Shown here in pieces: positions 6,864-41,130 of a stretch of 52,787 nt of DNA (position 1 is its first letter; the number at the start of each line of letters is the position of its first letter). The notes under the pieces were generated by a model. The model was not told the DNA's origin. It saw nothing but the letters and a program-made list of their open reading frames with translations, and searched no databases. The position numbers and the translations under genes are program-made. This stretch comes from a virus, in IMG/VR virus record IMGVR_UViG_3300033994_001553, positions 1-52,787 of that record; one strand, written 5' to 3'.

Positions 6864-7463
6864 ATGAAAAAACTTTTATTTGTATTATTATTTATTCCTT
6901 CACACTTCTTTGGACAGTGTGATACTTTACCACTAACGATAACACACGATGGTAATGTGCTTGATATGTGTTCAGAGTTTAAGACACATAACTATTCTGT
7001 TGAGAATATAGACAATGTTGTTTATTACTGGACGGTTGATAGTGTAGGACAGGTTGAGTCCGATAATGATATTTCATTGACTTGGGATGATACCACTGAT
7101 AATCATTTGATTGAAGTGTATGGTGTGGATTTAAATGGGTGTAGTACTGACACGGCTTCTTTAACTATTACCACCACTATCTGTCATAAACTATACATGC
7201 CCAATTCGTTTTCACCTAACAACGATGGGTTGAATGATATATTTTCCTTCAAGGGAACCAATGTATTTAATCCACGATTGGAGATTTATACGCAGTGGGG
7301 TGAAATGGTTTGTGTTATTGAATCATCATCACAATATTGGACTGGTAATGTTAATAACAGTGGATACTACTGTGAGTCGGGTATATATACTTGGAAGATG
7401 TATTATCGTGATGAAAAAGGAACACCACATTACCAAAAAGGTTTTGTTAGTTTGGTAAGATAA
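6864..7463 (+). CDS. Secreted protein with type IX (CHU_C/gliding-type) C-terminal domain
   Basis: 199 residues. A lipid-free signal peptide (MKKLLFVLLFIPSHFFGQ, cleavage about residue 18) is followed by an Ig/PKD-like beta domain (residues 25-105). The C-terminal domain begins YMPNSFSPNNDGLNDIF and ends with a beta-rich tail (KGFVSLVR). SFSPNNDGxND plus the IYTQWGE and SGIYTWKM motifs are the hallmark of the gliding-motility-associated C-terminal domain, a type IX sorting signal that exports proteins across the Bacteroidota outer membrane. Seen: signal peptide and domain motifs. Inferred: the phage sends this protein to the host surface by the host machinery, perhaps to alter adsorption or superinfection. 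Confidence 0.88.
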   Translation: MKKLLFVLLFIPSHFFGQCDTLPLTITHDGNVLDMCSEFKTHNYSVENIDNVVYYWTVDSVGQVESDNDISLTWDDTTDNHLIEVYGVDLNGCSTDTASLTITTTICHKLYMPNSFSPNNDGLNDIFSFKGTNVFNPRLEIYTQWGEMVCVIESSSQYWTGNVNNSGYYCESGIYTWKMYYRDEKGTPHYQKGFVSLVR

Positions 7464-7466
7464 TAT

Positions 7467-7497
7467 TTGATATAACCAAAAATTAAAAGTATATTTG
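7467..7497 (+). promoter_or_regulatory. Host-type promoter with A-rich leader
   Basis: TTG 7467-7469 and TATATTTG 7490-7497, spacing 20. The following leader (TAAAAGAAATAAAAACAAAA) is repeated after the promoter at 38601, so this promoter-leader exists twice in the window. Confidence 0.75.
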
Positions 7498-7527
7498 TAA
7501 AAGAAATAAAAACAAAAAAATAATAAT

Positions 7528-7893
7528 ATGTCTAAGAAGAACAAAAAACAAAACGAAGAGTTAATTGAGAAATTAATTGAAATCCAATCACAATTAAATG
7601 AAGTTAAATCTGAAGCGGGTATCGTAGTTGAAGAAGCGGATATCGTTTTCACAAGAGAACAATTAAAAGATTTCTTGATTGAATACACCGGTAAAATTAA
7701 TGAATGTATCTTTGATGAAATGATTAATTCATTAGAAGCTAATGATGTGGTAACATTTGAAGTTGATGGTCGTTTAATCATCCCAAGTATTGACGAAGAT
7801 GTTTTGAGAGACACATTCGTAAGTGCTACAGGCGAAATTCACTCAGATATTATAATGGATTGTGCTGACGAGGCAATCTCTGAAGTAATCTAA
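7528..7893 (+). CDS. Acidic helical protein, unknown
   Basis: 121 residues. The first 40 are a charged coiled-coil-like segment (EELIEKLIEIQSQLNEVKSE). The rest is acidic and mixed, with no membrane segment. It is a single-gene unit with its own promoter, A-rich leader and terminator, which suggests high or constitutive expression. No family recognised. Confidence 0.8.
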   Translation: MSKKNKKQNEELIEKLIEIQSQLNEVKSEAGIVVEEADIVFTREQLKDFLIEYTGKINECIFDEMINSLEANDVVTFEVDGRLIIPSIDEDVLRDTFVSATGEIHSDIIMDCADEAISEVI

Positions 7894-7907
7894 TTTAATT
7901 TATATAT

Positions 7908-7943
7908 AAAGGTCGGATTGTGAAATACACCGGCCTTTATTTT
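7908..7943 (+). terminator. Intrinsic terminator
   Basis: AAAGGTCGG pairs with CCGGCCTTT (one wobble) and is followed by an ATTTT tract. Confidence 0.8.
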
Positions 7944-7947
7944 ACAT

Positions 7948-8021
7948 GAAGAAGTAGCTCAGTCGGTAGAGCAAAGGTTTGAAACATCTTGCGCCACGTG
8001 GTTCGATTCCCGTCTTCTTCA
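7948..8021 (+). tRNA. tRNA-Phe (GAA), second copy, irregular T arm
   Basis: Acceptor GAAGAAG/CTTCTTC and anticodon arm AAGGT-TTGAAAC-ATCTT give anticodon GAA. The T stem pairs only if one T in ACGTGG bulges. It could be a diverged duplicate of the tRNA at 2300. Confidence 0.75.
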
Positions 8022-8035
8022 CAAATTTTAAAATT

Positions 8036-8245
8036 ATGGCAGCAAAAGGAAAGAACTGGTTTGATGTATTGAAATGGGTTGAAAAAGTTATTGAGTCGTG
8101 TGAGACACCAGGACAAGAAAGAACAACAAGAAAACTGGTTAAATTATATTTTGAACGATACAAAAAAGAATTTGGTGAAGTAGATTTACATATCTACAAT
8201 ATGCTGATTGAAAAACTTGATGGTATTACATTTAAAAAAATATAA
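8036..8245 (+). CDS. Small basic helical protein, unknown
   Basis: 69 residues from ATG 8036, chosen because the longer upstream reading would run back through the tRNA. Lysine-rich, with pattern WVEKVIESCETPGQERTTRKLVKLYFERY. The next gene begins 1 nt after the stop. No family recognised. It is part of a small operon leading to clpP. Confidence 0.72.
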   Translation: MAAKGKNWFDVLKWVEKVIESCETPGQERTTRKLVKLYFERYKKEFGEVDLHIYNMLIEKLDGITFKKI

Positions 8246-8246
8246 T

Positions 8247-8408
8247 ATGTCTTGTTGTAAGGAATGTCCTTGGAAGGTTGAGAATAATCACAACAGTAAG
8301 TTAAAAAACTTTGTTCAACGAACAGGTAGAAAACATACCTGTCATATGGTTAATCCCAAACTATGGGACACATCGGACGATAAACAAATTTGTAAAGGAA
8401 TAAAATAA
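8247..8408 (+). CDS. Small cysteine-rich protein with CPW motif (DUF6283-like)
   Basis: 53 residues from ATG 8247. Opens MSCCKECPWK and continues with TCHM and ICKG. These are probably four zinc or metal ligands. The CCxxCPW opening is typical of small phage proteins I associate with DUF6283, whose role is unknown. It lies between the 8036 gene and clpP in the same transcript. Confidence 0.72.
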   Translation: MSCCKECPWKVENNHNSKLKNFVQRTGRKHTCHMVNPKLWDTSDDKQICKGIK

Positions 8409-8414
8409 TATAGT

Positions 8415-9137
8415 ATGGATTACGGAAAAGAATTTAGAAAATTCGCAAAGAGTGAAGGTGTGTCATCATTATCATTAGATAGATACGAAAATGCGTTAAC
8501 ACCTTACGTGTTGGAAGAGAGAGAGTTAAGAGCAACACAAATAGATATCTTCTCAAGGTTACTCAGAGAAAGAATCTTATGGGTATCAGGACCTGTTGAC
8601 CAGCATATGTCCGATATTGTTCAGGCTCAGATGTTATTCTTGGATTCGGTTGAACAGAAAGATATTACCTTATATATTAACTCACCAGGTGGTTCAGTAT
8701 TGTGTGGTCTTGGTATTGTGGATTTGATGAACTACATTAAGTCAGATGTTGTTACCACAAACATTGGTATGTGTGCATCTATGGGTTCGGTATTACTTTC
8801 ATCAGGTACCAAAGGTAAACGTTCATCACTGGTGTATTCAAAGGTAATGACACACCAAGTAAGTCATGGAACAAGTGGTAACATTCAAGATACTCGTATC
8901 AACCAGATGGAAGCTGAGAAGTATAACTATATCTTATTTAAGATGTTGGCTGAGAATTGTGGTAAAACTATTGATGAGGTATTGGAGTTTTCTGCACGTG
9001 ACAGATGGTATAATTCAGACGAAGCAAAAGAGTTTGGTTTGATTGACGAGGTTATCAAAAATGATGGAACCAAAACAATCACTGAAATGCTTGACGGGTT
9101 TGATGACTACTACAAGAAAAGTGTGTTATCAATTTGA
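8415..9137 (+). CDS. clpP: ClpP-family serine protease
   Basis: 240 residues, close to a full ClpP. Visible landmarks are LYINSPGGSV (residues 86-95), the nucleophile Ser122 in GMCASMGSVLLS, His147 in MTHQVSHG, and Asp196 in the ARDRWYNSDEAKEFGLIDE segment. A complete Ser-His-Asp triad is therefore present. The N-terminal 40 residues are longer than in bacterial ClpP and may be a propeptide or an adaptor surface. ClpP forms a barrel that degrades proteins fed by Clp ATPases. No Clp ATPase is seen here, so it either uses the host's or works as a phage maturation protease. Related ClpP-like proteins serve as prohead proteases in some phages. Both roles are possible. Confidence 0.93.
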   Translation: MDYGKEFRKFAKSEGVSSLSLDRYENALTPYVLEERELRATQIDIFSRLLRERILWVSGPVDQHMSDIVQAQMLFLDSVEQKDITLYINSPGGSVLCGLGIVDLMNYIKSDVVTTNIGMCASMGSVLLSSGTKGKRSSLVYSKVMTHQVSHGTSGNIQDTRINQMEAEKYNYILFKMLAENCGKTIDEVLEFSARDRWYNSDEAKEFGLIDEVIKNDGTKTITEMLDGFDDYYKKSVLSI

Positions 9138-9147
9138 TGAAAAAAGT

Positions 9148-9178
9148 TTGTGTAACTAAAAAGAATGTTGTAGATTTG
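9148..9178 (+). promoter_or_regulatory. Host-type promoter, leaderless
   Basis: TTG 9148-9150 and TAGATTTG 9171-9178, spacing 20. ATG at 9183, 4 nt later. Confidence 0.75.
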
Positions 9179-9182
9179 TTGT

Positions 9183-9413
9183 ATGAAAAACGCAATAACT
9201 GAACTCTACACAAACTTAACTGATGAACAGTTAAGAGAAGCCATCTTACAAATGAAAGAAGATGAGCCATTGGGAATTATCCGAACAGATGGATGGGTTA
9301 GAAAACTAGCTAGACAAGTATGTGAAATCTTAGGAGGTACAGATATGTCAACTCATTTGTTCTTATCTCAAACTAATTTATTCAAAGAAGCGGCATACCG
9401 ATTTGTAAAATAA
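9183..9413 (+). CDS. Small protein, unknown
   Basis: 76 residues, mostly helical, opening MKNAITELYTNLTDEQLREA. Leaderless host-type promoter. A tRNA-like gene follows 6 nt after the stop. No family recognised. Confidence 0.78.
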   Translation: MKNAITELYTNLTDEQLREAILQMKEDEPLGIIRTDGWVRKLARQVCEILGGTDMSTHLFLSQTNLFKEAAYRFVK

Positions 9414-9419
9414 AAATTA

Positions 9420-9524
9420 GCTCAGGTGGCGGAAGAGAGACTAATGCATTAGTCCGATGGATAGACGCTAGGGTAACCTACCCGAGTCAGAAATGACGTG
9501 AAGGTTCAAGTCCTTCTCTGAGTA
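9420..9524 (+). tRNA. Oversized Leu-like tRNA gene with a palindromic insertion
   Basis: Acceptor GCTCAGG/TCTGAGT, A73, T arm GAAGG-TTCAAGT-CCTTC and variable arm GTCA-GAAA-TGAC are all present. The D region reads GCGGAA...TGGATAGACGC as in Leu tRNAs, but is split by about 20 nt containing the perfect palindrome GACTAATGCATTAGTC. The expected anticodon arm is GGGT-AACCT-ACCC with a 5-nt loop. Total 105 nt. No standard anticodon can be assigned. Confidence 0.5.
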
Positions 9525-9539
9525 CAAAAAATAAAAGAT

Positions 9540-9761
9540 ATGAAAAGAATAATTGTAATATTAGGTATCGGTATGTTTTTAACTGGTTGTTCAGATAAAA
9601 CCACCATGTCCCAAGACACGGAGATGCTACAAACAAAGTACCCTAATTGTGTTGTGTATCAGATAAATAGCGAAAGATATATAGTTATTGATTCGTTACA
9701 CGCTTTAGATGTTCGTGTTAGTTTATCGGGAGAGATTACATCCACTGTTAAAATAAAATAG
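9540..9761 (+). CDS. Small lipoprotein
   Basis: 73 residues. The signal sequence MKRIIVILGIGMFLTGC has a clear lipobox (LTGC, Cys17), so the mature protein is lipid-anchored. The remaining 56 residues are beta-prone with no recognised domain. Phage lipoproteins of this size often act in superinfection exclusion. That is a guess here. Confidence 0.82.
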   Translation: MKRIIVILGIGMFLTGCSDKTTMSQDTEMLQTKYPNCVVYQINSERYIVIDSLHALDVRVSLSGEITSTVKIK

Positions 9762-9800
9762 TTAGGTATTGCGTAATGTGAAAGCATACTACAAAAAAAT

Positions 9801-9831
9801 TTGTGGGGTAAACTATTTCGTCGTATATTTG
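9801..9831 (+). promoter_or_regulatory. Host-type promoter, leaderless
   Basis: TTG 9801-9803 and TATATTTG 9824-9831, spacing 20. ATG at 9836, 4 nt later. Confidence 0.78.
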
Positions 9832-9835
9832 TGAT

Positions 9836-10318
9836 ATGAATAACGAAATAAAGTACATACCTACAAAAGATGCGATTATTGGATACAGTGATTCTAAAAT
9901 CGCTCAAAGTGAAAGTAATGATTGTGTTGTTAGAGGTATCGCATCTTCATTTGAAATGCATTACGACGAGGCTCATAAGTTTGTTGCAAAAACTTGGTTT
10001 CGTGGGAATCGTCAGGGAACAAGAAACTTTGTTGGAGGTATGCGTAGTATGGTTAGAAGAGGAGTTTTGATTAATGGTAAATCATTCTCCAATTTGGGTG
10101 ACCAAAACGGACATATGAAATATGATGTTAAAGTTAAAGGTCAGATTGTTAAACGTAATATGACCACAGGAACGTTCATTAAGAAATTCCCAAAAGGTAG
10201 ATATCTTGTTGTTGTTCGTGGACACGCTTTCTCAATCATTGATGGAGTAGTTGTTGGAAACACAGAAGATTCTAAGATGAAAAAACGAGTTATTTTGTAT
10301 TCTTGGGAAGTTAAATAA
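9836..10318 (+). CDS. Papain-like cysteine peptidase (C39-like), predicted
   Basis: 160 residues. The order Cys30 (SNDCVVRGIA), His130 (RGHAFSIIDG) and Asp136 or Asn142 fits a papain/C39-like catalytic arrangement. The segment TGTFIKKFPKGRYLVVVRGHAF is a pattern I associate with uncharacterised phage cysteine peptidases. No signal peptide, so it acts inside the cell or is packaged. Leaderless host-type promoter, single gene. It might process phage or host proteins. Substrate unknown. Confidence 0.75.
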   Translation: MNNEIKYIPTKDAIIGYSDSKIAQSESNDCVVRGIASSFEMHYDEAHKFVAKTWFRGNRQGTRNFVGGMRSMVRRGVLINGKSFSNLGDQNGHMKYDVKVKGQIVKRNMTTGTFIKKFPKGRYLVVVRGHAFSIIDGVVVGNTEDSKMKKRVILYSWEVK

Positions 10319-10326
10319 GATTTTTC

Positions 10327-10357
10327 TTGACACGAGAGTATTTATTACTTACATTTG
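10327..10357 (+). promoter_or_regulatory. Host-type promoter for tRNA-Met
   Basis: TTGAC at 10327 and TACATTTG 10350-10357, spacing 20. The next gene is tRNA-Met at 10403. Confidence 0.72.
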
Positions 10358-10402
10358 TCAAACAATTCAGGAACGACTGAATGTTAAATTGAAATATTAT
10401 AA

Positions 10403-10477
10403 AGCAGGATGGAGAAGATGGTCTATCTCGTGACTCTCATAAGGTCAAGGTCGCAAGTTCGAATCTTGCTCCTGCTT
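10403..10477 (+). tRNA. tRNA-Met or Ile2 (CAT), first copy
   Basis: Acceptor AGCAGGA/TCCTGCT and anticodon arm TGACT-CTCATAA-GGTCA give CAT. T arm GCAAG-TTCGAAT-CTTGC. Elongator, initiator or lysidine-modified Ile2 cannot be separated with confidence. No initiator-type mismatch at 1:72 is seen. Confidence 0.88.
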
Positions 10478-10483
10478 CTAAAG

Positions 10484-10592: not shown

Positions 10593-10596
10593 ATTT

Positions 10597-22070: not shown

Positions 22071-23342
22071 ATGACGAAAAATACAAAAATCTATTTACTT
22101 TTTTCTATTTTAATAATGTCTGTATTCTTTTTGGTTAAAACATCTGTTTTACTTGAAATACAGGAATCAACAAGAGTTACACGTGGTATTGAATACATTT
22201 GTTTTATTTTGTTAATTCCTATATCAATATTAATGATTAAAGACTTTATCAAATCTAATAAAAATTCAATATCTAAAGAATCTGTAGATAAGTTAATTAA
22301 ATTAGAAAATGAACTTACTAATAGAATGACCGCTATCAATAAATCTAATGCGGTTATTGAATTTGATTTAGAAGGTAATATTATTTTTGCCAATGATTTG
22401 TTTATAAAAACTATGGGATATCCATCACAGGATGAAATAGTTGGAAAACATCACAGAATTTTTGTGGAAGATGATTATGAGAAAAGTGAGGATTATTGTC
22501 TTTTTTGGGAAAAATTAAGAAGTGGTGTATTATTTTCAGGGGAAATTGTTAGAGTTAAAAAAGATGGGTCTTTAGTTTATTTACAAGCGACCTACAATCC
22601 TATTTTTGATACTGATGGTAAGATTTATCGTGTTATGAAAATCGCTATTGATATCACGAATTCTTACGAACAGAAGAAAGAGATTGAAAGAAAGAATACA
22701 TACTTGGAACATGCTGCTAAGATATTGAGACACGATATGCATTCAGGTATTAATACCTATATACCAAGAGGTGTTAACTCGTTGGAGAGAAGATTAACTC
22801 AAGAAGATATTGTTAAACTTAAAATTGAGGCACCACTTAAAATGATTAAGGAAGGACTTAAGCATTCACAGAAAGTTTATAAAGGTGTTTATGAATTTAC
22901 CAATCTGGTAAAGAAAGATGTTGTTCTTAATAAAACTGAATTTAACATCAAGGACATTCTCAAGGACTATTTGTCCTCGACGGCATACATTAGTCAGGTT
23001 ATGTTGGATGATAACCTACCAACGATTGAAGTTAATGAACCATTGTTTTGTACAGCATTGGATAACCTAATTAGGAATGGTTTAAAATATAATGATTCAG
23101 ATACCAAGTTTGTTAAGATATACTCTGAAGGTGATATGATATTCATACAGGATAATGGTAGAGGTATTACCCAAGAAGATTTTAATTATTTATCAAAACC
23201 ATACACCAGAAAAGAAGGTCAAAAAGAATCGGGTACTGGTTTAGGATTGAATATCTGTGTTGCCATTTTAGAAGAACACGGATTTAAAATAACCTGTGAA
23301 AAAAATGAAACAGGAACTAAAATGAAAATCAAATTTAAATGA
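22071..23342 (+). CDS. Membrane sensor histidine kinase with PAS domain
   Basis: 423 residues. Two transmembrane helices (about 8-27 and 40-57) with a very short periplasmic loop, then a PAS domain (about 92-198, NAVIEFDLEGNIIFAND...YNPIFDTDGKIYRVM). The kinase core has H-box EHAAKILRHDMHSGIN (phospho-acceptor His221), N-box LDNLIRNGLKYND, G1 IQDNGRGI (Asp361) and G2 SGTGLGLNIC. All residues for autophosphorylation are present. The next gene overlaps by 4 nt. Its kinase core is nearly identical to that of the kinase at 23956, so both probably phosphorylate the receiver at 26010. Confidence 0.93.
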   Translation: MTKNTKIYLLFSILIMSVFFLVKTSVLLEIQESTRVTRGIEYICFILLIPISILMIKDFIKSNKNSISKESVDKLIKLENELTNRMTAINKSNAVIEFDLEGNIIFANDLFIKTMGYPSQDEIVGKHHRIFVEDDYEKSEDYCLFWEKLRSGVLFSGEIVRVKKDGSLVYLQATYNPIFDTDGKIYRVMKIAIDITNSYEQKKEIERKNTYLEHAAKILRHDMHSGINTYIPRGVNSLERRLTQEDIVKLKIEAPLKMIKEGLKHSQKVYKGVYEFTNLVKKDVVLNKTEFNIKDILKDYLSSTAYISQVMLDDNLPTIEVNEPLFCTALDNLIRNGLKYNDSDTKFVKIYSEGDMIFIQDNGRGITQEDFNYLSKPYTRKEGQKESGTGLGLNICVAILEEHGFKITCEKNETGTKMKIKFK

Positions 23343-23956
23343 AAACATTACTAACTTTTATTTTCTTAACAATTTCTTTGTTTGGGTTTAGTCAAATTAA
23401 ATACCCAATTCAAACAATCTATAGAGGTGACTCTGTTGTTATCCTATCTGTTAAACAATCTGTTGATATTAATAAAGCAATTGAAACACAAAGAAGGATT
23501 ATTAGAGAACAAGGTAAAAAAATCACATCCTTAAATAATAAGATAGATAGTTTAAATAACATTGTTGAAAATATACCTAACATGTTAGATAGTATCAAAT
23601 ATGTAGCAGATACGACATATAAATGGGCTGATGAATTGAATATGACTCTTTGGGAATACGCTACAAATGGAGCGTTCATATACACTATACCCCCATACAA
23701 CAAGTTATATTTTGTGAATTTAGATGATTACAATCTTTACACTCATGAATACGGAAAAATTCTTGTTTTTGAAAAAATGACTAAAAGTGAGTATGAAGAA
23801 TATAAAAAATTCAGAGAAGAGTTTGATATGCAGTTCGCACCAGCAACAAATTATTTTCACAATTTAAAGTTTCTTGATTTTAATGGTATAACTCGAAGAT
23901 ATGAATCATGGATTTGGAAAAATAAAAGTTTATTAAAAGAAGAATTAAAAAAGTAA
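23339..23956 (+). CDS. Periplasmic coiled-coil protein of the signalling operon
   Basis: 205 residues. Signal peptide MKTLLTFIFLTISLFGFSQ, cleavage near residue 19. Residues 40-85 form a coiled coil (IETQRRIIREQGKKITSLNN). The C-terminal part is aromatic and charged with no recognised domain. It overlaps both neighbours by a few bases, between two sensor kinases. A periplasmic input or partner protein for the second kinase is inferred. Confidence 0.82.
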   Translation: MKTLLTFIFLTISLFGFSQIKYPIQTIYRGDSVVILSVKQSVDINKAIETQRRIIREQGKKITSLNNKIDSLNNIVENIPNMLDSIKYVADTTYKWADELNMTLWEYATNGAFIYTIPPYNKLYFVNLDDYNLYTHEYGKILVFEKMTKSEYEEYKKFREEFDMQFAPATNYFHNLKFLDFNGITRRYESWIWKNKSLLKEELKK

Positions 23957-25284
23957 TGAAAAAGATAATATTATTGATTTTAGTAACACTCGTATCGACA
24001 GGTTTACACTCACAAAATTTGAATTACAACGATACATTAGTTGACGGAATTGACGTTTCATGGTCTAACGATAATTTACAGATTGATGGTGATACTAGTC
24101 AAGTTGCGGCTATGGATATACAAGAAATCGTTACAACTTGGATTCCACCTGAACCTGAACCAGTTGATGAAACTAAATTGTCTGAAAGTGATTTAGCAAG
24201 TATTGCTGAAGACTTACAGTTTTTAACTGACTTACCAAAATCGTATACTGATTTACCTAAAGAAGATTTAAAAAATGTATTAGTTCAAATTGATAACAAG
24301 ATTAATAAACTTACCGCAGAACGAGATTTATTATTAGCTCAAGCTATAAGAAATGAAGAACTTATAAAATCAAAAGAAAATACCATTACTTCGTTAAGTA
24401 AAGAAAAGAATATCATCGGTTTGACTTTGGAGACTGATGACTTAATGGATGAGAATGGAAATTTGATGACTGAAAAAACTGATTTGGAAAAACAAAGAGA
24501 GACCTTGAAGAAATACCTTTATGGTGCTTTAGGTGTTGTTATACTGTTTGTTTTAATATTGGCGGTTGTCTTACAAAGAAAGAGAATACAAGTACAGGAT
24601 GTTGAGATTGAACAACAGATTAGTGATATTGCTAAGAAGAATAGTTACTTGGAACACGCTGCAAGAATCATTAGACATGACATGCACTCAGGTATTAACA
24701 CATACATGCCAAGAGGTATTACATCATTAGAAAAAAGATTAACCGTTGAGGACATCCAAAGATTAAAGATTGAAGGGGCACTTAAGATGGTTAAAGAAGG
24801 ATTAAACCATACGCAAAAAGTTTATAAGAGTGTTTATGAGTTTACCAATCTTGTTAAACAAAATGTTGTGTTAAATAAATCTGTGGTTAATCTTAAAGAT
24901 TTGATTTGGAAATACATTTCACCAAATTCATATAGTTCACAGGTTGAGATATCTGACTTGGGTGATATGGAAGTGAATGAGACTTTATTCTGTAATGCGG
25001 TTGAGAACTTAATTAAGAATGGTTTATCATATAACGATAGTGAAGTTAAAAAAGTTAAGATATACAACGAAGAAGAATATTTAATAGTTGAGGATAACGG
25101 TAAAGGATTCTCACAAAAACAACTTGAAAAACATTTAACAAAATACTCAAAGAAGGCTGATGTCACTGGTGAAGAGAAGGGTCTTGGGTTGAATATATGT
25201 GTTGCGATATTAGAAGAACATGGTTTTAAATTGAGTTGTGAAAAAATTGAAGGTGGAACCAAAATGAAAATAAAAATAAAATAA
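23956..25284 (+). CDS. Membrane sensor histidine kinase with periplasmic coiled-coil sensor
   Basis: 442 residues. A signal peptide (cleavage about residue 20), a periplasmic region of about 165 residues with a proline-glutamate linker (PPEPEPV) and a long coiled coil, one transmembrane helix (about 188-207), then the kinase core. H-box EHAARIIRHDMHSGIN (His241), N-box VENLIKNGLSYND, G1 VEDNGKGF, G2 EKGLGLNIC. The layout resembles Bacteroidota kinases with periplasmic sensors. Core close to that of 22071 but the sensor is unrelated, so one output may serve two inputs. Confidence 0.92.
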   Translation: MKKIILLILVTLVSTGLHSQNLNYNDTLVDGIDVSWSNDNLQIDGDTSQVAAMDIQEIVTTWIPPEPEPVDETKLSESDLASIAEDLQFLTDLPKSYTDLPKEDLKNVLVQIDNKINKLTAERDLLLAQAIRNEELIKSKENTITSLSKEKNIIGLTLETDDLMDENGNLMTEKTDLEKQRETLKKYLYGALGVVILFVLILAVVLQRKRIQVQDVEIEQQISDIAKKNSYLEHAARIIRHDMHSGINTYMPRGITSLEKRLTVEDIQRLKIEGALKMVKEGLNHTQKVYKSVYEFTNLVKQNVVLNKSVVNLKDLIWKYISPNSYSSQVEISDLGDMEVNETLFCNAVENLIKNGLSYNDSEVKKVKIYNEEEYLIVEDNGKGFSQKQLEKHLTKYSKKADVTGEEKGLGLNICVAILEEHGFKLSCEKIEGGTKMKIKIK

Positions 25285-26007
25285 GTGGCATACGTTTACC
25301 AACATATTAGAAAAGACACTAATGAACCTTTTTATATTGGGATTGGTAGTGATTTAAATTTTTATCGGGCTAATAAGTTCTCTGAAAGAAATGAAATATG
25401 GGAAAGAATTAAAAATAAAACTGAAATTTTAGTTGAAATATTACATAATAATATTGAATGGGATGAAGCTTGTGAAATTGAGATAGAACTAATAAAAAAA
25501 TATGGTAGAATAAATAATAAAACTGGTATTTTATCTAATATGACTGATGGAGGTGAAGGGACTTTGAATCGGGTGATTAATGAAGATACTAGGTATTTGT
25601 TAGGTAATGGAAATAGAGGGAAACAAAGAACTGACGAATCTAGGTTAAAACAAAGTATTACTAATAAAGGTGTTAAAAAAACAAAAGAACATTGTGAAAA
25701 AATACGACAATATAGATTAGGAAAAAAAATGAGTGAGGAGAGCAAGAAAAAAATGTCGGAAAATTCAAAAGGAAGACAAACTTGGAATAAAGGGGTTAAA
25801 TTTACAGAAGAATCTAAAATTAAAATGAGTAATTCAAAAAAAGGTAAAAAAACTTCAGGTAATAACCCAAATTCTAAAATAGTTTTAAATACTGAAAATG
25901 GTATTTATTATGATACTCTTAAAGATGCTGCGTTATCTGTTAATATAGGGTATTCAAATTTTAAACAAAAAATAAAAAAAAATAAAATAAATTTTAAATA
26001 TGTGTAA
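25285..26007 (+). CDS. GIY-YIG homing endonuclease interrupting the signalling operon
   Basis: 240 residues, GTG start at 25285 directly after the kinase stop. N-terminal GIY-YIG nuclease: YVYQHIRKDTNEPFYIGIGS, then a conserved Arg and the Glu in WDEACEIEIELIKKYG. The middle has repeated NUMOD3-like DNA-binding segments (KKTKEHCEKIRQYRLGKKMS, EESKIKMSNSKKGKK), and the C-terminus (YYDTLKDAALSVNIGYSNF) is a NUMOD1-like helix-turn-helix. It separates the kinase from its probable receiver gene, only 2 nt from the latter. Lysine-rich and more AT-rich than its neighbours, consistent with recent arrival. Confidence 0.9.
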   Translation: MAYVYQHIRKDTNEPFYIGIGSDLNFYRANKFSERNEIWERIKNKTEILVEILHNNIEWDEACEIEIELIKKYGRINNKTGILSNMTDGGEGTLNRVINEDTRYLLGNGNRGKQRTDESRLKQSITNKGVKKTKEHCEKIRQYRLGKKMSEESKKKMSENSKGRQTWNKGVKFTEESKIKMSNSKKGKKTSGNNPNSKIVLNTENGIYYDTLKDAALSVNIGYSNFKQKIKKNKINFKYV

Positions 26008-26009
26008 AA

Positions 26010-26441
26010 ATGATTGATTCAATTTTATTGGTTGATGATGAAGACCTTTTTCATCTAGTTTTTGAGGACTCTTGTTCATTACTTGACATTACATTGTCAT
26101 TAAGAAGTTTGAACAGTTCGGATGAAGCTGCTAAACTATTTGCTGGATGGCAAAAAGATACATCACAAAAACCTGAATGTGTGTTTGTGGATTTAAACAT
26201 TATAGGTTCATCCTTTGATGGTATTGAACTTATCCGTAAGATTAACTTTGAATATGGTAACCATGTAGTTATCGGTATCATATCTTCAAGTAACGAACCT
26301 GAAGAACAGGCTAAGGCAGTTCAGGCTGGTGCTCAGTTTTGGATTATCAAGTCGGATGACATTGAACCAAGACTTGAAGAGTTTAAGAAAGACTACGACG
26401 GATATAAGAACAGAACAAACCCTTTCAAAGTTTATAAATGA
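26010..26441 (+). CDS. Stand-alone response-regulator receiver protein
   Basis: 143 residues, a single receiver domain with no output domain. Acidic cluster at Asp9/Asp10/Glu11 (LLVDDED), phospho-acceptor Asp61 (VFVDLNI), Ser92/Ser93 (IISSSNEP) and Lys114 (WIIKSDD) complete the active site. It probably accepts phosphate from the kinases at 22071 and 23956. Lacking a DNA-binding domain, it is likely to act through protein contact, perhaps with the coiled-coil membrane protein whose gene overlaps it by 4 nt. Confidence 0.92.
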   Translation: MIDSILLVDDEDLFHLVFEDSCSLLDITLSLRSLNSSDEAAKLFAGWQKDTSQKPECVFVDLNIIGSSFDGIELIRKINFEYGNHVVIGIISSSNEPEEQAKAVQAGAQFWIIKSDDIEPRLEEFKKDYDGYKNRTNPFKVYK

Positions 26442-27747: not shown

Positions 27748-28434
27748 ATGAAAAAAATTATTTTAAGTATTATTATGTCAACTATGTTATTTAGTTGTGA
27801 TACAAGTACAAAAACTGAAAATGCTGAAGACATTAAATCTGATAAAATTGTTAAGATACATGATGGGTCTTTTGCTTTTTGTGGTGCATCGGGAGCGATT
27901 CCAACCGGACGAAAGATTGTTGTTCAAGGTGTAGAATATGATGAGGGTTGTGCAATATGTCCTGTATTATCAGGGCCATCAATCTCCAATTTGGCGATGG
28001 AAGGTTTTAGTGAAACCTACGGAAAGTTTAATGTTAATGAATACTTCCAAAGTCCTGACGGAACCAATAATACTGTTTGGTCGTTATTTTGGTATTATGA
28101 TTCAACTACGACTATTCCTCAATTTAACCCTTCAACTAAAGAATGGGAAATGATGACACCTGTGAATAGAGCTTTTGTTGTGAATACAGATGAACCAAGT
28201 ACAAGTGAAAGTAATATGTTCGCAATGCCAGGTATTATTTTTGATACAACATCTACAGGTATTGTGTTGGCAAAAGTATATGGCCCACTTAACGAGGCTG
28301 CGGTTCCACTACGTAAAGCAATTCCTGTTAAAACAGGTATGACATCAATCACGGCAGCTAAGATTGGATTTCCTTATCCTGTGGGGACACCTGTACCTAT
28401 TGCTGAGTATAGTAAAGAACTTCAAAAAAAGTAA
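27748..28434 (+). CDS. Lipoprotein, unknown
   Basis: 228 residues. Signal MKKIILSIIMSTMLFSC with lipobox (Cys17). The mature part has several cysteines (FCGASGA, CAICPVLSG) and a beta-rich, secreted-type composition. TATTTAT lies 20 nt upstream of the ATG. Flanked by identical terminators. No family recognised. Probably surface- or periplasm-exposed, perhaps excluding other phages. Confidence 0.82.
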   Translation: MKKIILSIIMSTMLFSCDTSTKTENAEDIKSDKIVKIHDGSFAFCGASGAIPTGRKIVVQGVEYDEGCAICPVLSGPSISNLAMEGFSETYGKFNVNEYFQSPDGTNNTVWSLFWYYDSTTTIPQFNPSTKEWEMMTPVNRAFVVNTDEPSTSESNMFAMPGIIFDTTSTGIVLAKVYGPLNEAAVPLRKAIPVKTGMTSITAAKIGFPYPVGTPVPIAEYSKELQKK

Positions 28435-34034: not shown

Positions 34035-34715
34035 ATGTTGAAAGTAACCCTAATATCAGACACGCACACTAAAGAACGAAATGTTCTTGTGAATGGTGGT
34101 GATTTGATTTTACATAGCGGTGACGTTATGAACTCAGGTTATAATTGGGAAGATTTGTATGACTTCTTAAAATGGTTCAGTGAGTTACCATATAAGATGA
34201 AGGTATTCATTCCTGGTAATCACGACAGATACATTGAGGACAAACCATTTGACGCTTGGAAGATGATTCGTGAGTTTAACGACAAAGGTGTTGTTTGTTT
34301 GATTGATGACTTCGTTGAGTTTGAGGGATTGAAAATCTATGGTAGTCCTTGGCAACCTGAGTTCTACAATTGGGCATTCAATCTACCACGTAATGGTAAG
34401 GAGTTGGAAGAGAAGTGGGCAAACATTCCTGACGATACCGACATCTTATTGACACACGGACCGGCTTGGGGTATCTTGGATACTGTAGTCAATCGTCGTG
34501 ATATGAACTTGGGTTGTGAGATGTTAACCAAACGATTGGAGACATTACACCCACTAATCCATAGTTGTGGGCATATCCACACAGGTTATGGGTATGTTGA
34601 GAAGAACGGAACACACTTCTTCAACGCATCTATCTTGGATGAGCGTTACCGTCACAACCAAAAACCTTTTGATATCACAATTAATTTAGAAAATAAACAA
34701 ATAGATATATTATGA
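34035..34715 (+). CDS. Calcineurin-like metallophosphoesterase, second
   Basis: 226 residues. Motifs LISDTHT, LHSGDVMN, IPGNHDRY, LLTHGPAWG and HSCGHIHTGYG give the full metallophosphoesterase metal site. The compact form with HGPAWGILD resembles predicted MPPED/YmdB-like phosphoesterases acting on nucleotides or cyclic phosphates. It closes the RNA-repair region. The lipoprotein gene overlaps its stop by 4 nt. Confidence 0.9.
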   Translation: MLKVTLISDTHTKERNVLVNGGDLILHSGDVMNSGYNWEDLYDFLKWFSELPYKMKVFIPGNHDRYIEDKPFDAWKMIREFNDKGVVCLIDDFVEFEGLKIYGSPWQPEFYNWAFNLPRNGKELEEKWANIPDDTDILLTHGPAWGILDTVVNRRDMNLGCEMLTKRLETLHPLIHSCGHIHTGYGYVEKNGTHFFNASILDERYRHNQKPFDITINLENKQIDIL

Positions 34716-34981
34716 AAAAATCAAATTTTTATGTGGTGATGTTATTCACATCACTAACAATTATGGCAACAATGGTATCTTGTACCGATGCTGAAAAGAG
34801 TAAACTAGGTGGATATGGTGATACGTTCACAGTTAAAGTATTAGGACCTGACACCATAATTACTTACCATTCAACAGGTAAGGTTATTAGTGAACAAAAT
34901 TCTGATGGATATTATTTCACAAACCGAGATAATGGTAAATTAGTTGAGGTAAGTGGAAATGTTATAATAGAACAAGAATAA
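34712..34981 (+). CDS. Small lipoprotein
   Basis: 89 residues. Signal sequence with lipobox ATMVSC (Cys24), then a short beta-rich domain. Starts within the upstream stop (ATGA). No family recognised. Confidence 0.78.
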   Translation: MKKSNFYVVMLFTSLTIMATMVSCTDAEKSKLGGYGDTFTVKVLGPDTIITYHSTGKVISEQNSDGYYFTNRDNGKLVEVSGNVIIEQE

Positions 34982-34982: not shown

Positions 34983-35711
34983 ATGATTGAAAAATTAGTT
35001 AAAAACAGAACCCCGTACCTTGGGAAAATGGTATTGAAGTTTGAGAAATATCCATACTACACAAGTAGTCATAATGGTCAATTAAATAAAGTTCACCTTA
35101 ATTTAGGGTTCACCAAATTGGTGACTAGGTTCATACCAAATCAGGTTATGACAGGTCACTCAAATATTGACCCCAAGAAAGTTGAGTTGATTGAGAAATA
35201 TACTGGTGGTGTTATTGGAACTCACAAGTGGGATAATGATGAATTTGTTTTGGAGGATTCTTTCTTAACTAAAGACGGGAAATACATTGGTAACATTGAG
35301 ACTGCTTGGTGGTATTTTCAAAACGGAATGACTGTTTGTGAAGAATATCCAAACGGAGTTGCTATTGTTTGGAATACTGTAAACTCTGATAAAACATTGA
35401 TGAGTGGGTGGGGTGGTATTAAAGGTTACTATGGTTACACACATCGTGGTGGAGGTCTATTCAAAATTGGTGACCGATTGTTTGATGAAAAATATAATCC
35501 AGTTGTTGAGGATTATGATGAGAAGGAATTTACAAAGTGGTGGAAAACATATATCAAGTCATATAAAAAGGGTGACGATTTTGATAGAAAACACATTTAT
35601 AATGATGGAATTAAATCGGTAATACCATTCAACAAGAGAGGTAAACATACGATTAAAAATTGGGAAGACGCAAGAACTGCGGCGATTAATATGTCAAAAT
35701 ATCTATCATAA
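34983..35711 (+). CDS. Unidentified phage protein
   Basis: 242 residues, rich in Trp, Tyr, Gly and Lys. Conserved-looking segments: FLTKDGKYIGNIETAWWYF, VCEEYPNGVAIVWN and GWGGIKGYYGYTHRGGG. The last could be a small-molecule or nucleic-acid binding loop. No signal peptide. The next gene overlaps by 1 nt. I recognise no family. Confidence 0.8.
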   Translation: MIEKLVKNRTPYLGKMVLKFEKYPYYTSSHNGQLNKVHLNLGFTKLVTRFIPNQVMTGHSNIDPKKVELIEKYTGGVIGTHKWDNDEFVLEDSFLTKDGKYIGNIETAWWYFQNGMTVCEEYPNGVAIVWNTVNSDKTLMSGWGGIKGYYGYTHRGGGLFKIGDRLFDEKYNPVVEDYDEKEFTKWWKTYIKSYKKGDDFDRKHIYNDGIKSVIPFNKRGKHTIKNWEDARTAAINMSKYLS

Positions 35712-37248: not shown

Positions 37249-37256
37249 TAAGGATT

Positions 37257-37463: not shown

Positions 37464-37770
37464 TGTAAAATTAGGAAAATGTATTGTGGGGTTTTATTAT
37501 AAAACTCTATGGACGGATAATACTTTGAAGCAAAGTAATTATCGTCATGTTGGTGTCTTTACCTCAAGACACTTGGCTTATGTGTGGTATAAAGATGAAA
37601 AGACTGGTGAGAAGAAACGAGAGTCAACCTATAACTTTGGTTTGGACTTGGTTGTGGCTCGTCTTTGGATATCGTTTAACTTCAACAAGAAGAAAGGAGC
37701 TAAACCAAAAGAAGACAAACGAAAATTCGTTGAACCACTTTCAACTGAAGAAGTTGTTTGGGAACAATGA
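37450..37770 (+). CDS. Basic protein, unknown
   Basis: 106 residues, lysine/arginine-rich, aromatic. TYNFGLDLVVARLWISFNF suggests a beta sheet. Overlaps both neighbours. No family recognised. Confidence 0.72.
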   Translation: MKLFDVKLGKCIVGFYYKTLWTDNTLKQSNYRHVGVFTSRHLAYVWYKDEKTGEKKRESTYNFGLDLVVARLWISFNFNKKKGAKPKEDKRKFVEPLSTEEVVWEQ

Positions 37771-37994
37771 AAAAGTATATCCACGTCAATCAACACAAGA
37801 TAAGGTCCAACAAGAAGAATAACGAGTTAGAACCTGTTATAACCATTAAAGAAGGTAAAAAGAACACCTATTGTTCCGAGGTTGAAATCTTGGGACCTAG
37901 TCGTGTTGTGTATGGTGGTAATGAAAAGACATTGTTGTCCTGTGGGGCACGTGTGATAATTGAAACTGAATCGGAAATTAATATCATAAGATAA
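37767..37994 (+). CDS. Small basic protein, unknown
   Basis: 75 residues from ATG 37767, inside the upstream stop (ATGA). The first 25 residues are strongly basic, the rest beta-rich. No family recognised. Confidence 0.7.
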   Translation: MKKYIHVNQHKIRSNKKNNELEPVITIKEGKKNTYCSEVEILGPSRVVYGGNEKTLLSCGARVIIETESEINIIR

Positions 37995-38347
37995 TGGCAA
38001 CACTTGAATCACAATATTGGAAGTTTTTGGAAGATAACCCTGGCTCAACTCTAACATTTGAAGAGTGGAATGTTGAGTTAGGTAAACGAATTAAAATGGG
38101 TTTTGAAAACAGGAAAAATAATTTAGATGAACAACTTGAAGAGTTTGAAATGGTTCGTTATAGAATGGAGGCTGAAGGTTTCCATTACTGTTTCAAACAT
38201 TACTCATCATTCAAAGAAGTTAAGGATGAAAAGTTTCACGAATTAAGAAATAAATATTTGGAGATATCTCACGAACTTGAGGAATATGTCCATTCAAAGA
38301 TTAGCACATTGAGAGATGAAATTGATGGATTGGAAGAAATCATTTAA
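37994..38347 (+). CDS. Helical coiled-coil protein, unknown
   Basis: 117 residues, nearly all helical and charged (RNKYLEISHELEEYVHSKIS). Start overlaps the previous stop by one base. No family recognised. Confidence 0.75.
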   Translation: MATLESQYWKFLEDNPGSTLTFEEWNVELGKRIKMGFENRKNNLDEQLEEFEMVRYRMEAEGFHYCFKHYSSFKEVKDEKFHELRNKYLEISHELEEYVHSKISTLRDEIDGLEEII

Positions 38348-38360
38348 ATAAGTAACTGAT

Positions 38361-38531
38361 ATGAGAAGTAAAACGTTAGACAGAATCCTTAAAGAAATGG
38401 AGAACGACACTTGGCATGTTAAGTTAAGAAGGTGGTGGAGAGTGAGATTGTGGGTATGGACTTGTAGAACAAGATGGATTTGGGATTTAGAATATGAACG
38501 TAATATCTTTAGAAATAAGAAAAACAAATAA
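38361..38531 (+). CDS. 56-residue Arg/Trp-rich protein
   Basis: ATG 38361, TAA 38529-38531. Very rich in Trp and Arg (RRWWRVRLWVWTCRTRWIW), suggesting nucleic-acid or membrane contact. No family recognised. Confidence 0.62.
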   Translation: MRSKTLDRILKEMENDTWHVKLRRWWRVRLWVWTCRTRWIWDLEYERNIFRNKKNK

Positions 38532-38560
38532 AGTTACAGTTTTGGGTGTTGTTGAATTAA

Positions 38561-38608
38561 ATACGTAAAAATACGTATTGGGGGATTATGGAATTAGTTA
38601 TATATTTG
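38561..38608 (+). promoter_or_regulatory. Host-type promoter with twin TACGTA operator
   Basis: TTG 38578-38580 and TATATTTG 38601-38608, spacing 20. Two copies of ATACGTA (38561-38567 and 38571-38577), each centred on the palindrome TACGTA, lie directly upstream of and touching the -33 element, so repression or activation by a dimeric protein is likely. The leader repeats that of the 7490 promoter. It drives the cassette of small genes. Confidence 0.65.
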
Positions 38609-38638
38609 TAAAAGAAATAAAAACAAAACTAAACAACT

Positions 38639-38785
38639 ATGTTAGACACAATGATTTATATTTTATTATTCATGCTGGTAGTAATCTTTCCAGTGTCCTT
38701 TGTATTATACGTTGCTGTATGGACTCCTAAACAGAAGATGAAAGGTCATGCAGGTAGAGGTAAATGTAAATGTTGTAATAACTAA
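38639..38785 (+). CDS. 48-residue membrane peptide with Cys-rich tail
   Basis: ATG 38639, TAA 38783-38785. One hydrophobic helix (about 5-29), then a basic, cysteine-containing tail (GKCKCCNN). First gene of the cassette run. No family recognised. Confidence 0.65.
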   Translation: MLDTMIYILLFMLVVIFPVSFVLYVAVWTPKQKMKGHAGRGKCKCCNN

Positions 38786-38798
38786 AAAATAAATAACT

Positions 38799-38909
38799 AT
38801 GGACAGAAGAGAAGGAATGCCTGTAGAAGCATTAGGACAAATACTATTTGTTATACTCACAATTTGGGGAATAGCTTATGGAGTGTCTTGGCTAATTGAA
38901 TTAATCTAA
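38799..38909 (+). CDS. 36-residue membrane micropeptide
   Basis: ATG 38799, TAA 38907-38909. One hydrophobic helix (ILFVILTIWGIAYGVSWLI). Preceded by AAATAACT-ATG, the shared spacer of this cluster. Confidence 0.6.
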   Translation: MDRREGMPVEALGQILFVILTIWGIAYGVSWLIELI

Positions 38910-38921
38910 AACTAAATAACT

Positions 38922-39023
38922 ATGGAAAACACCGATTTAAATTCTCAAAGAATTATTCAAGCATTGCGTCAACCAACAAACGAAATTGTTGAAAGCATTT
39001 TAATTTCACTAATTACTAAATAA
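38922..39023 (+). CDS. 33-residue peptide
   Basis: ATG 38922, TAA 39021-39023. Amphipathic (IIQALRQPTNEIVESILISL). Preceded by ACTAAATAACT-ATG like its neighbours. Confidence 0.55.
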   Translation: MENTDLNSQRIIQALRQPTNEIVESILISLITK

Positions 39024-39025
39024 CT

Positions 39026-39631
39026 ATGAAAAAACTATTTGTACTAGCTATGGTAAGCCTTTTATGTTTACCTGTATTTTCTCAAACTTCTAACTATTAC
39101 ATTGAAATAGTTAACAATGACTTTAACAACGATAGTTGTGGAATTATAAATATGAGTATTGACCCTGCTGCTAATTATACAGCTTGTGGTGTAGTAGTAA
39201 ATGGGGTTGGTATTAAAAAAAGTGTAACATACCCTTTTACTATGACTGCTAATCACATATTCAATTTTACTCTACATTTTGAAACTACTTGTGGATGTGT
39301 CTATGATTTTATAATCTCAGATACAGTAACGTTTGTACCAAATACCACATATGCAAGAGTAATTTTTGCTGATGGGGATGATTGCAATGACTCAAGTACT
39401 TTTGTTCTAGGGACAGATGAATTAGAAATTACTACGGTTTTAACAATTTATCCTAGCCCAGCAACTGAACAGATAACTTTAAGTAGAATAGGTGATGTGT
39501 TAATATATTCATCTAATGGAAAGTTAGTTAAAAATGTTAGGAATGAGAAAATAATTGATGTTAGTGATTTACCAAGTGGGTTATATCTTGGATTCATTAA
39601 TGGGAAGAAGTTTAATTTTATTAAAAAGTAA
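39026..39631 (+). CDS. Secreted type IX cargo with Por-type sorting domain, paralogue 1
   Basis: 201 residues. Signal peptide MKKLFVLAMVSLLCLPVFSQ. A beta domain of about 110 residues with conserved cysteines (SCGIIN, ACGVV, TTCGCVYDF, DDCND). The C-terminal domain (about 140-201) has LTIYPSPATEQITLSRIG, then VLIYSSNGKLVK and DVSDLPSGLYLGF, the pattern of type A type IX sorting domains (Por secretion tail). About 60-65% identical by eye to 40528. The sorting domain directs export across the host outer membrane and usually anchoring. Probably coats or modifies the infected cell surface. Confidence 0.9.
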   Translation: MKKLFVLAMVSLLCLPVFSQTSNYYIEIVNNDFNNDSCGIINMSIDPAANYTACGVVVNGVGIKKSVTYPFTMTANHIFNFTLHFETTCGCVYDFIISDTVTFVPNTTYARVIFADGDDCNDSSTFVLGTDELEITTVLTIYPSPATEQITLSRIGDVLIYSSNGKLVKNVRNEKIIDVSDLPSGLYLGFINGKKFNFIKK

Positions 39632-39637
39632 ATAATT

Positions 39638-39790
39638 ATGGAAAAGAAAAAAACACTTGAAGATGCTCTTAAAAATTATGTGCAAGGTAAAGACACCGTT
39701 GCTAAAAATATACCTGTTTATTCTGAAAATGGGGAGAAACTATACTTTAATGAGCAAGGCTATTTAATCAAATTGTATCATGAAAACTAA
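39638..39790 (+). CDS. 50-residue protein, MEKK family
   Basis: ATG 39638, TAA 39788-39790. Opens MEKKKTLEDA like the 39797 and 40064 genes but the rest resembles 40316 (PVYSENGEKLYF against TVYSTNGNLIEH). No family recognised. Confidence 0.65.
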   Translation: MEKKKTLEDALKNYVQGKDTVAKNIPVYSENGEKLYFNEQGYLIKLYHEN

Positions 39791-39796
39791 ATAACT

Positions 39797-40057
39797 ATGG
39801 AAAAGAAACAAACTGCGGTTGAATGGTTGGTGGAACAACTCGATAAACTTGAATATGAGTATGATGTTGAAGGAATAAGCATATTAGATTTCGATAAAAG
39901 AAAAATAGAAATTGAAAACCAAGCCAAGCAAATGATGAAGGAGCAGATGAAAGATGTGTATCTAACTCACTGTGTTAAATCAGAGCGTTTGAGAAAAATC
40001 TTTGAGCAACAATTTGATGATTTTTACAACGAAACTTACGGACAAACTAAAAACTAA
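39797..40057 (+). CDS. MEKK-TAVEW family protein, paralogue 1
   Basis: 86 residues. MEKKQTAVEWLVEQLDKL...IENQAKQMMKEQ...FDDFYNETYG. Paralogue of the next gene. Helical. The same pattern occurs in many uncharacterised Bacteroidota phage proteins. Function unknown. Spacer AACTAAATAACT before ATG. Confidence 0.78.
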   Translation: MEKKQTAVEWLVEQLDKLEYEYDVEGISILDFDKRKIEIENQAKQMMKEQMKDVYLTHCVKSERLRKIFEQQFDDFYNETYGQTKN

Positions 40058-40063
40058 ATAACT

Positions 40064-40309
40064 ATGGAAAAGAAAGAAACTGCGGTTGAATATCTTGTAG
40101 AGCAATTATTTAAAATACACAACAATACTACTGATGTTAAAGAAATGAATAGCAAAAGTATTATTGAACAAGCCAAGCAAATGGAGAAGGAGCAACACGA
40201 AGAAACTTGGTTTAGTAGTAGAGATGAAGATATGGGTGATGAATTTAAGGTGGAGCAAAAGTCATTTGAGGACTACTACAACGAAACTTATGGAGAAACT
40301 AAAAACTAA
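40064..40309 (+). CDS. MEKK-TAVEW family protein, paralogue 2
   Basis: 81 residues. MEKKETAVEYLVEQLFKI...IIEQAKQMEKEQ...FEDYYNETYG, clearly a tandem duplicate of the preceding gene with a diverged centre. Spacer AACTAAATAACT before ATG. Function unknown. Confidence 0.78.
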   Translation: MEKKETAVEYLVEQLFKIHNNTTDVKEMNSKSIIEQAKQMEKEQHEETWFSSRDEDMGDEFKVEQKSFEDYYNETYGETKN

Positions 40310-40315
40310 ATAACT

Positions 40316-40516
40316 ATGGAAAACCTCACAGTTTATTCTACAAATGGTAATCTTATTGAACATTCAAAACCTATCGTTACTATTGAGACGGAAGTAGAAA
40401 TTGCAGGGCAAGGAGAACTACCAATTAAAATAATTGCAGATTTTACAGATATTCCTGAGCATAAGCATGAGCTGTTTTTTCAAGCATTCAAAATGATGTA
40501 TAATATTAAATTTTAA
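40316..40516 (+). CDS. Small protein, unknown
   Basis: 66 residues, beta-rich then helical (IPEHKHELFFQAFKMMYNI). Same AACTAAATAACT spacer. No family recognised. Confidence 0.7.
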   Translation: MENLTVYSTNGNLIEHSKPIVTIETEVEIAGQGELPIKIIADFTDIPEHKHELFFQAFKMMYNIKF

Positions 40517-40527
40517 ACTAAAAAACT

Positions 40528-41130
40528 ATGAAAAAACTATTTGTATTAGCTGTAGCAAGTCTTTTATGGCTTCCCGTATTTTCTCAAACAACATATTACA
40601 TTAATATTGTTAATAGTGACTTCAACAATGATAGTTGTGGAATCATTAACACCACAATTGACCCTCCTGGGGATTGGATAGCATGTGGTGTATTAGTAAA
40701 TGGGGTTGTGTTTCAAAAAAGTGTAACCTATTCGTATAACGTAACATCTGACCATATATTTAATTCTACTTTACACATTGAAACCACTTGTGGATGTGTC
40801 TATGATTTTACAATCACCGATACTGTGTTATTCGCATTGTTAAATAGCCATTATACTAGAATAATTTTCATTGATGGAAATGATTGCACTGATTATGGTA
40901 CAATTGTTTTAGGTGTGGATGAATTAACTAGTGATGCTTTAACAGTTTATCCAAATCCAGCAAATAGTCAAATAACTTTAAGTAAGATAGGTGATGTGTT
41001 AATATATTCATCTAATGGACGGTTGATTAAGACTATTAAAAATAAGAAGGTAATTGATGTTAGTGATTTACCAAGTGGGTTATATCTTGGGTTCATTAAT
41101 GGAGAGAAGTTTAACTTTATTAAAAACTAA
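40528..41130 (+). CDS. Secreted type IX cargo with Por-type sorting domain, paralogue 2
   Basis: 200 residues. Signal peptide MKKLFVLAVASLLWLPVFSQ, the same cysteine-containing domain as 39026, and a C-terminal LTVYPNPANSQITLSKIG sorting domain with VLIYSSNGRLIK and DVSDLPSGLYLGF. The sorting domain is the best conserved part between the two copies, while the exposed domain differs more, as expected if it faces selection outside the cell. Spacer ACTAAAAAACT before ATG. Confidence 0.9.
   Translation: MKKLFVLAVASLLWLPVFSQTTYYINIVNSDFNNDSCGIINTTIDPPGDWIACGVLVNGVVFQKSVTYSYNVTSDHIFNSTLHIETTCGCVYDFTITDTVLFALLNSHYTRIIFIDGNDCTDYGTIVLGVDELTSDALTVYPNPANSQITLSKIGDVLIYSSNGRLIKTIKNKKVIDVSDLPSGLYLGFINGEKFNFIKN

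Follow-up and report, generated by a model that had tools for sequence, protein, structure and literature searches.

The DNA analysed here, referred to as the window, comprises all 52,787 nucleotides (nt) of the viral record IMGVR_UViG_3300033994_001553. It encodes three proteins (P0001, P0002 and P0003) that each have an N-terminal signal peptide and a C-terminal sorting domain of the type IX secretion system (T9SS). The reading that we favour, with a probability of roughly 0.62, is that these three secreted proteins are put on, or released from, the surface of the infected cell via the host T9SS, and that P0001 is a stripped-down form of an assembly that related phages make from three genes, here called A, B and C. 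Phage-encoded cargo for the host T9SS had already been proposed in the first-pass annotation of the window. Judged from the sequences it is still the best interpretation, as both types of sorting domain, the signal peptides, Bacteroidota promoters, purifying selection on P0001 and the presence of such sorting domains across the phage clade all point in this direction.

Type IX sorting signals on three proteins

Open reading frames (ORFs) were called mechanically, and signal peptides were called by eye and with a simple script. The proteins and their parts, with lengths in amino acids (aa), are as follows:

6864..7463, + strand: P0001, 199 aa, with a signal peptide, one Ig/PKD-like domain and a CHU_C domain; a putative solo anchor (C) with a built-in tail-like segment (sequence, profiles)
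6864..6914, + strand: signal peptide of P0001, aa 1-17, with Q at +1 (sequence, Q-rule PMC5837995, by eye and script)
7197..7460, + strand: CHU_C type B sorting domain of P0001, aa 112-199 (profile matches)
39026..39631, + strand: P0002, 201 aa, with a signal peptide (aa 1-19), a cargo without recognised fold and a type A sorting domain (sequence, profiles)
39446..39628, + strand: type A sorting domain of P0002, aa 141-201 (profile match)
40528..41130, + strand: P0003, 200 aa, a paralogue of P0002 with a signal peptide (aa 1-19) and a type A sorting domain (sequence, profiles)
40945..41127, + strand: type A sorting domain of P0003, aa 140-200 (profile match)

The ORFs starting at 6864, 39026 and 40528 had been annotated as carrying an N-terminal signal peptide and a C-terminal type IX sorting domain, one of the CHU_C type (type B) and two of the Por type (type A). 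All three matched above the curated cut-offs and the profiles agree with this division. P0001 (6864-7463) scored 50 bits against PF13585 CHU_C (cut-off 27) and 39.1 against TIGR04131 (cut-off 35), P0002 (39026-39631) scored 37.5 against PF18962 (cut-off 27) and 27.9 against TIGR04183 (cut-off 23), and P0003 (40528-41130) scored 40.1 and 33.4 against these last two profiles, with the same cut-offs. In each protein the sorting domain is located at the extreme C-terminus. The signal peptides end in FFG (P0001) or VFS (P0002 and P0003) and are followed by Q at +1, as the Bacteroidetes Q-rule predicts (PMC5837995). P0001 was found in 13 further viral contigs, with nonsynonymous divergence (dN) far below synonymous divergence (dS), indicating purifying selection. 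A chance match or contamination was rejected on account of the curated cut-off matches together with this distribution and selection. PHROGs had no match for any of the three proteins. Surface display of the window proteins by the T9SS is well supported, as a prediction from sequence. The span 6864-41130 under which the annotation had listed them is not a single feature, since about 32 kb separates the type B gene from the type A pair and their neighbourhoods are unrelated.

P0002 and P0003 are 70% identical overall. The claim that the sorting domains are the best conserved parts of these paralogues stands only in part: amino-acid identity of the C-terminal sorting domain (CTD) is 74% (82% over the last 51 residues) and exceeds that of the cargo (66%), but the signal peptide is more conserved still (84%). 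The dS of the CTD is lower too (0.34 vs 0.89), so part of the CTD conservation reflects recent homogenisation and not constraint on the protein. This weakens the notion that the CTD is under stricter protein-level conservation than the cargo.

The CHU_C profile match of P0001 spans positions 3-86 of 86. Secretion of the CTD of SprB was reported to need five conserved motifs (PMC12618676). The AlphaFold model of P0001 is two-part and all-beta, with a predicted local distance difference test score (pLDDT) of 84.6 and a predicted template modelling score (pTM) of 0.57, and a fold search of the PDB returned just generic Ig-like matches with low TM-scores that point to no function. Among predicted viral structures, A0A6J5L8Z9 has 199 aa, is 86% identical to P0001 and is annotated as ‘Gliding motility-associated, C-terminal domain’.

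The A-B-C operon and the solo form P0001

Many phages contain a mini-anchor gene, C, directly after a PKD-like gene, B (mostly 184-193 aa), with a further secreted gene, A, nearby and usually upstream. A and B each start with a Q-rule signal peptide and finish with a C-terminal tail, I-x-[HTY]-[ND]-COOH. A scan with B gave 141 relatives, of which the best 80, ranked by similarity to the query, were kept, and 55 distinct closed B ORFs were counted among these. The tail terminates all 55 distinct B proteins when I, L, V or W is admitted as its first residue. The gene order is equally regular: C lies within 2.5 kb of B for 52 of the 55 B ORFs, its start is within 9 nt of B in 50 of these 52, with one base common to B and the start of C in 31, and an additional tail-bearing ORF occurs nearby in 50 of the 52 B-C loci. 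The codons of the tail vary and the tail is also present where no gene directly follows, so it is conserved as protein; a DNA-level artefact arising from a start signal is ruled out on the same grounds. The tail was absent from all 82 Q-rule ORFs located around bacterial CHU_C genes. A is variable, with PKD proteins in some phages and a glycine-rich ALK/LTK-like domain in one, whereas B and C are uniform in size, which suggests that A is a tip, B a stalk and C an anchor. Upstream of the operon, L296 (237-2432) and L338 (48-2369) encode large proteins with Ig_7 domains and a weak Por_Secre_tail match, below the cut-off, at the end.

P0001 can be related to this operon through L102 and L104, from close relatives of the window phage, which represent the same locus (the adjoining ClpP is 94.6% identical to that of the window) and encode single chains of 521 and 527 aa, respectively, with parts matching A, B and C. 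Residues 1-19 of P0001, covering the signal peptide, align with L102, after which residues 23-199 correspond to L102 345-521; the A and B parts are gone. At the position of the B-to-C junction of L102 (PFPITYD), P0001 has a segment that resembles free B tails (GAITHD, PISHN):

6930..6950, + strand: PLTITHD segment of P0001, aa 23-29 (position of the L102 B-to-C junction PFPITYD; like a free B tail)

The tail of a separate B would fall where the segment of the fused protein runs straight into C. P0001 itself has the features of a C protein, that is, a signal peptide, an Ig-like domain with three conserved cysteines and CHU_C. Since separate tail-bearing A and B genes are absent beside it, P0001 is a relative of C and not a full operon; read from these alignments, it is a solo, shortened form of the A-B-C anchor.

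The small size of P0001 allows another explanation. Type B signals were reported to be 150-235 aa long (PMC12618676), and mature P0001 (182 aa) is no longer than this, so the protein may consist of a sorting signal and hardly any cargo, or none. When viral contigs were scanned with one CHU_C motif, 293 relatives were obtained; the best 80, ranked by similarity to the query, were kept, so that comparisons of size and frequency are biased. Within this set 58 were examined: nearly all complete ones consist of a Q-rule signal peptide and a protein that stops directly after the CTD, and 15 are ≤200 aa. They include the sub-family of P0001 (about 185-199 aa), with a signal peptide, a single Ig/PKD-like domain, CHU_C and three invariant cysteines. 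Six phage proteins of about 107-149 aa (L060, L061, L116, L118, L130 and L132) have scarcely more than a signal peptide and CHU_C and are possible T9SS competitors. The idea that such short proteins occur in phages only was rejected, as bacteria have some: about 5 among roughly 150 CHU_C proteins listed in 14 bacterial genomes are ≤200 aa, and none as short as these phage proteins is among the 80 best bacterial matches. These sizes would fit a competitive inhibitor, in which P0001 and the bare CHU_C proteins saturate host shuttles or the translocon, cut the display of SprB-like adhesins and thereby block gliding and other phages. However, the Ig domain and its cysteines are kept across phages and C is made together with A and B in operons, both of which argue for an anchor and not a jammer, and the type A proteins P0002 and P0003 do have cargo. 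We regard inhibition as unlikely, but as the strongest of the competing explanations.

The gene neighbourhood of the operons bears on a second alternative, namely that the proteins act late, helping to disrupt the envelope at lysis, or become associated with the virion. Some phages with the operon have these genes next to endolysins, a crAss-type ring protein or a head-tail adaptor. Still, a recognisable lysozyme lies near the operon in just 3 of the 80 loci, the window genes are not adjacent to structural or lysis genes, and Q-rule signal peptides are of no use for virion assembly in the cytoplasm. A lysis or virion role therefore seems improbable to us, and display through the host T9SS is the reading pursued below.

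Relatives of the window and its exchangeable loci

The window has a G+C content of 33% and encodes 22 tRNA genes, DnaK and ClpP. Its DnaK is nearest (69.7% identity) to those of two uncultured phages, LR745206 (634 kb) and LR756502 (642 kb), and contigs akin to the window reach 110 kb and 242 kb. Contig G010 belongs to the phage lineage of the window itself, with 100% identity across 28 kb, and reaches further upstream. Going by their sizes and not by any record label, LR745206, LR756502, LR756501 (735 kb) and LR756504 (636 kb) probably correspond to the Mahaphages above 634 kb that Al-Shayeb et al. (2020; PMC7162821) predicted to have Bacteroidetes hosts, and the window, by similarity, is probably a piece of a huge Mahaphage-like Bacteroidota phage.

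The large genomes carry sorting domains as well. CHU_C and Por_Secre_tail matches number 4 and 2 in LR745206 (one of the latter just below the cut-off), 3 and 1 in LR756502, 0 and 2 in LR756501, and 0 and 1 in LR756504. The tagged proteins of these 634-735 kb records have a signal peptide, nearly always with Q at +1, then the cargo, and the CTD at the protein end. Two of them stand apart: L058 of LR756502 (642 kb) is gliding-adhesin-like, with 1,670 aa, 13 SprB repeats, a PKD domain and CHU_C, and in L064 of LR756501 (735 kb) the type A domain is internal and is followed by about 280 aa that, by eye, resemble a FISUMP-type domain. Within 50,697 phage records, both tag types were confined to huge uncultured phages and a small number of short fragments from faeces.

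The lineage of the window has a fourth tagged protein (type A), encoded on G010 about 6 kb upstream of the left end of the window, which brings the number of separate tagged loci to three. At this third locus (L250-L269 in relatives) the signal peptide and type A CTD are constant and the middle is exchanged. At least three cargoes occur: a Kazal-type inhibitor-like domain, a MopE-like metal-binding motif plus additional sequence, and another cargo. In close relatives the flanks are about 90% identical, and DNA homology is lost inside the gene and returns at the CTD. P0002 and P0003 are likewise located in a region that differs between relatives, being swapped for other genes in G006 and G009:

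38356..41514, + strand: variable island of small genes with P0002 and P0003, ending at the thymidylate synthase gene (contig comparison)

Location in an exchangeable island, and the fact that the protein families are common in Bacteroidota genomes, would fit recently captured host genes without particular phage use, or host contamination in the assembly, but given the selection on P0001 in its 13 further viral contigs, the three tagged loci of the lineage and the tagged 634-735 kb records of the clade we consider this very improbable.

The genes of the island (38630-41139) have a near-identical junction, TAAATAACTATG, with 10 sites against 1.35 expected, all within the island. It recurs in contigs G003, G004 and G009 with different gene orders, a pattern that looks like a cassette array in which small genes are shuffled via a common start signal.

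A weak promoter match lies upstream of P0001:

6826..6856, + strand: near-consensus Bacteroidota promoter, TTG-N20-TATAATTG, ending 7 nt before the start codon of P0001 (weak)

The Bacteroidota promoter consensus is TTTG-N18-21-TAnnTTTG, and it has 19 matches in the window compared with 2.8 expected; the site before P0001 is just one of many TTTG/TAnnTTTG sites in the window. The window furthermore encodes a match to the Tad6 family of type I Thoeris inhibitors (34983-35711; PF25188, E 1e-16), a possible anti-defence gene. Inspection of the translations by eye revealed an apparent phage-borne signalling cluster (22071-26441) with two histidine-kinase-like genes, the second of which has a signal peptide, a response-regulator-like gene, and a small secreted gene (23339-23956) between both kinases. 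Lipoprotein-like signal peptides are present on further small exported proteins (9540-9761, 27748-28434 and 34712-34981).

Proposed display on the infected cell and comparison with known systems

Sec and signal peptidase I of the host, followed by the T9SS, would place the three proteins on the surface of the infected cell or release them. T9SS-dependent placement on the infected cell is what their domains make most likely. P0002 and P0003 would follow the PorV/type A branch and P0001 a host-supplied PorP/SprF-like/type B branch. In phages with the operon, the tail would dock as a strand onto the next subunit, and C would carry A and B through the outer membrane or hold them there, so that A-B-C would form a surface fibre of tip, stalk and anchor in which C is a detachable T9SS-targeting subunit. 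Docking by strand donation is inferred from where the tail would lie relative to C. Bacteroidetes type V pili, which are surface fibres whose Ig-like subunits are linked through a donated C-terminal strand, serve as an analogy for the A/B tail and a lead only, as type V pilus subunits are protease-trimmed lipoproteins and not T9SS CTD cargo. The solo P0001 with its tail-like segment would probably be a surface mask, or tie up a host type B shuttle or take the position of a gliding adhesin. The more specific model, in which the tail docks the subunits, a cargo-less type B subunit is the detachable signal, and the tail-fused solo anchor of the window acts on the gliding/T9SS surface of the host, is tentative and in our estimate somewhat more probably wrong than right. 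What the displayed proteins are used for is uncertain: masking of the surface or altered adhesion, competition for the type B shuttle, or a late or lysis role. Loss of gliding is selected for by phages in Flavobacterium columnare (PMC3534065), and on that account the gliding surface is a plausible target, but no more than that.

Several points weigh against export and display as proposed. Type B cargo binds PorP/SprF-like partners (PMC9143113, PMC12618676) and type B signals were reported to be shuttle-specific (PMC12618676). No PorP/SprF partner was found in 29 phage records, where the control likewise gave no match, and P0001 would thus depend on a compatible host shuttle. A and B have no sorting domain of their own, and their piggy-back export by the T9SS is an assumption. 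For the cargo of P0002, AlphaFold with three sequences gave a pLDDT of 44 and the model was discarded. Lastly, neither the window nor the available contigs of its lineage revealed separate A or B genes; yet P0001 is under purifying selection in these contigs, which argues that the solo form has a use of its own.

If display is correct, some of the largest known phages remodel the surface of the infected cell via the host type IX system. Superinfection exclusion or altered attachment would then have a concrete route in Bacteroidota, a phylum with abundant, mostly uncultured phages. It would follow from the A-B-C operon that a distinct subunit can provide the T9SS address, and at about 180 aa the phage mini-anchors would serve as convenient tools in studies of type B export and for surface display.

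Among host proteins, SprB with SprF (PMC9143113, PMC12618676) is similar in having a signal peptide, Ig-like repeats and a C-terminal CHU_C/TIGR04131 domain, but host type B cargo is mostly much longer and is often encoded with its own PorP/SprF-like shuttle, which was not found in the phages. Q-rule proteins of Porphyromonas gingivalis phages (PMC10367356) are likewise adapted to the Bacteroidetes signal peptidase pathway, with no T9SS sorting domain mentioned there. For huge phages, probably of the same clade (Mahaphage, Bacteroidetes hosts), Al-Shayeb et al. (2020; PMC7162821) proposed that surface-localised proteins change how susceptible the cell is to other phages; secretion systems go unmentioned in the main text of that paper, and the T9SS tags emerged from the present analysis.

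A precedent is Cryophage, for which Bellas et al. (2020; PMC7468147) described phage-encoded T9SS cargo of variable content and suggested superinfection exclusion, so this general idea is already published. As in the window, phage proteins carry T9SS sorting domains and vary between phage variants. Cryophage differs in that its domains are type A only, on an endoglucanase, a GH39 protein and a PA14 protein, whereas in the window type A occurs on small proteins without recognised fold and type B on a solo anchor of the A-B-C family. A full-text literature search with thin coverage of subscription journals turned up no account of the A-B-C operon or of its tail, and this family of phage-made surface assemblies has apparently not been described so far. 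If the docking model holds, the operon would go beyond a variant of the known phage T9SS cargo.

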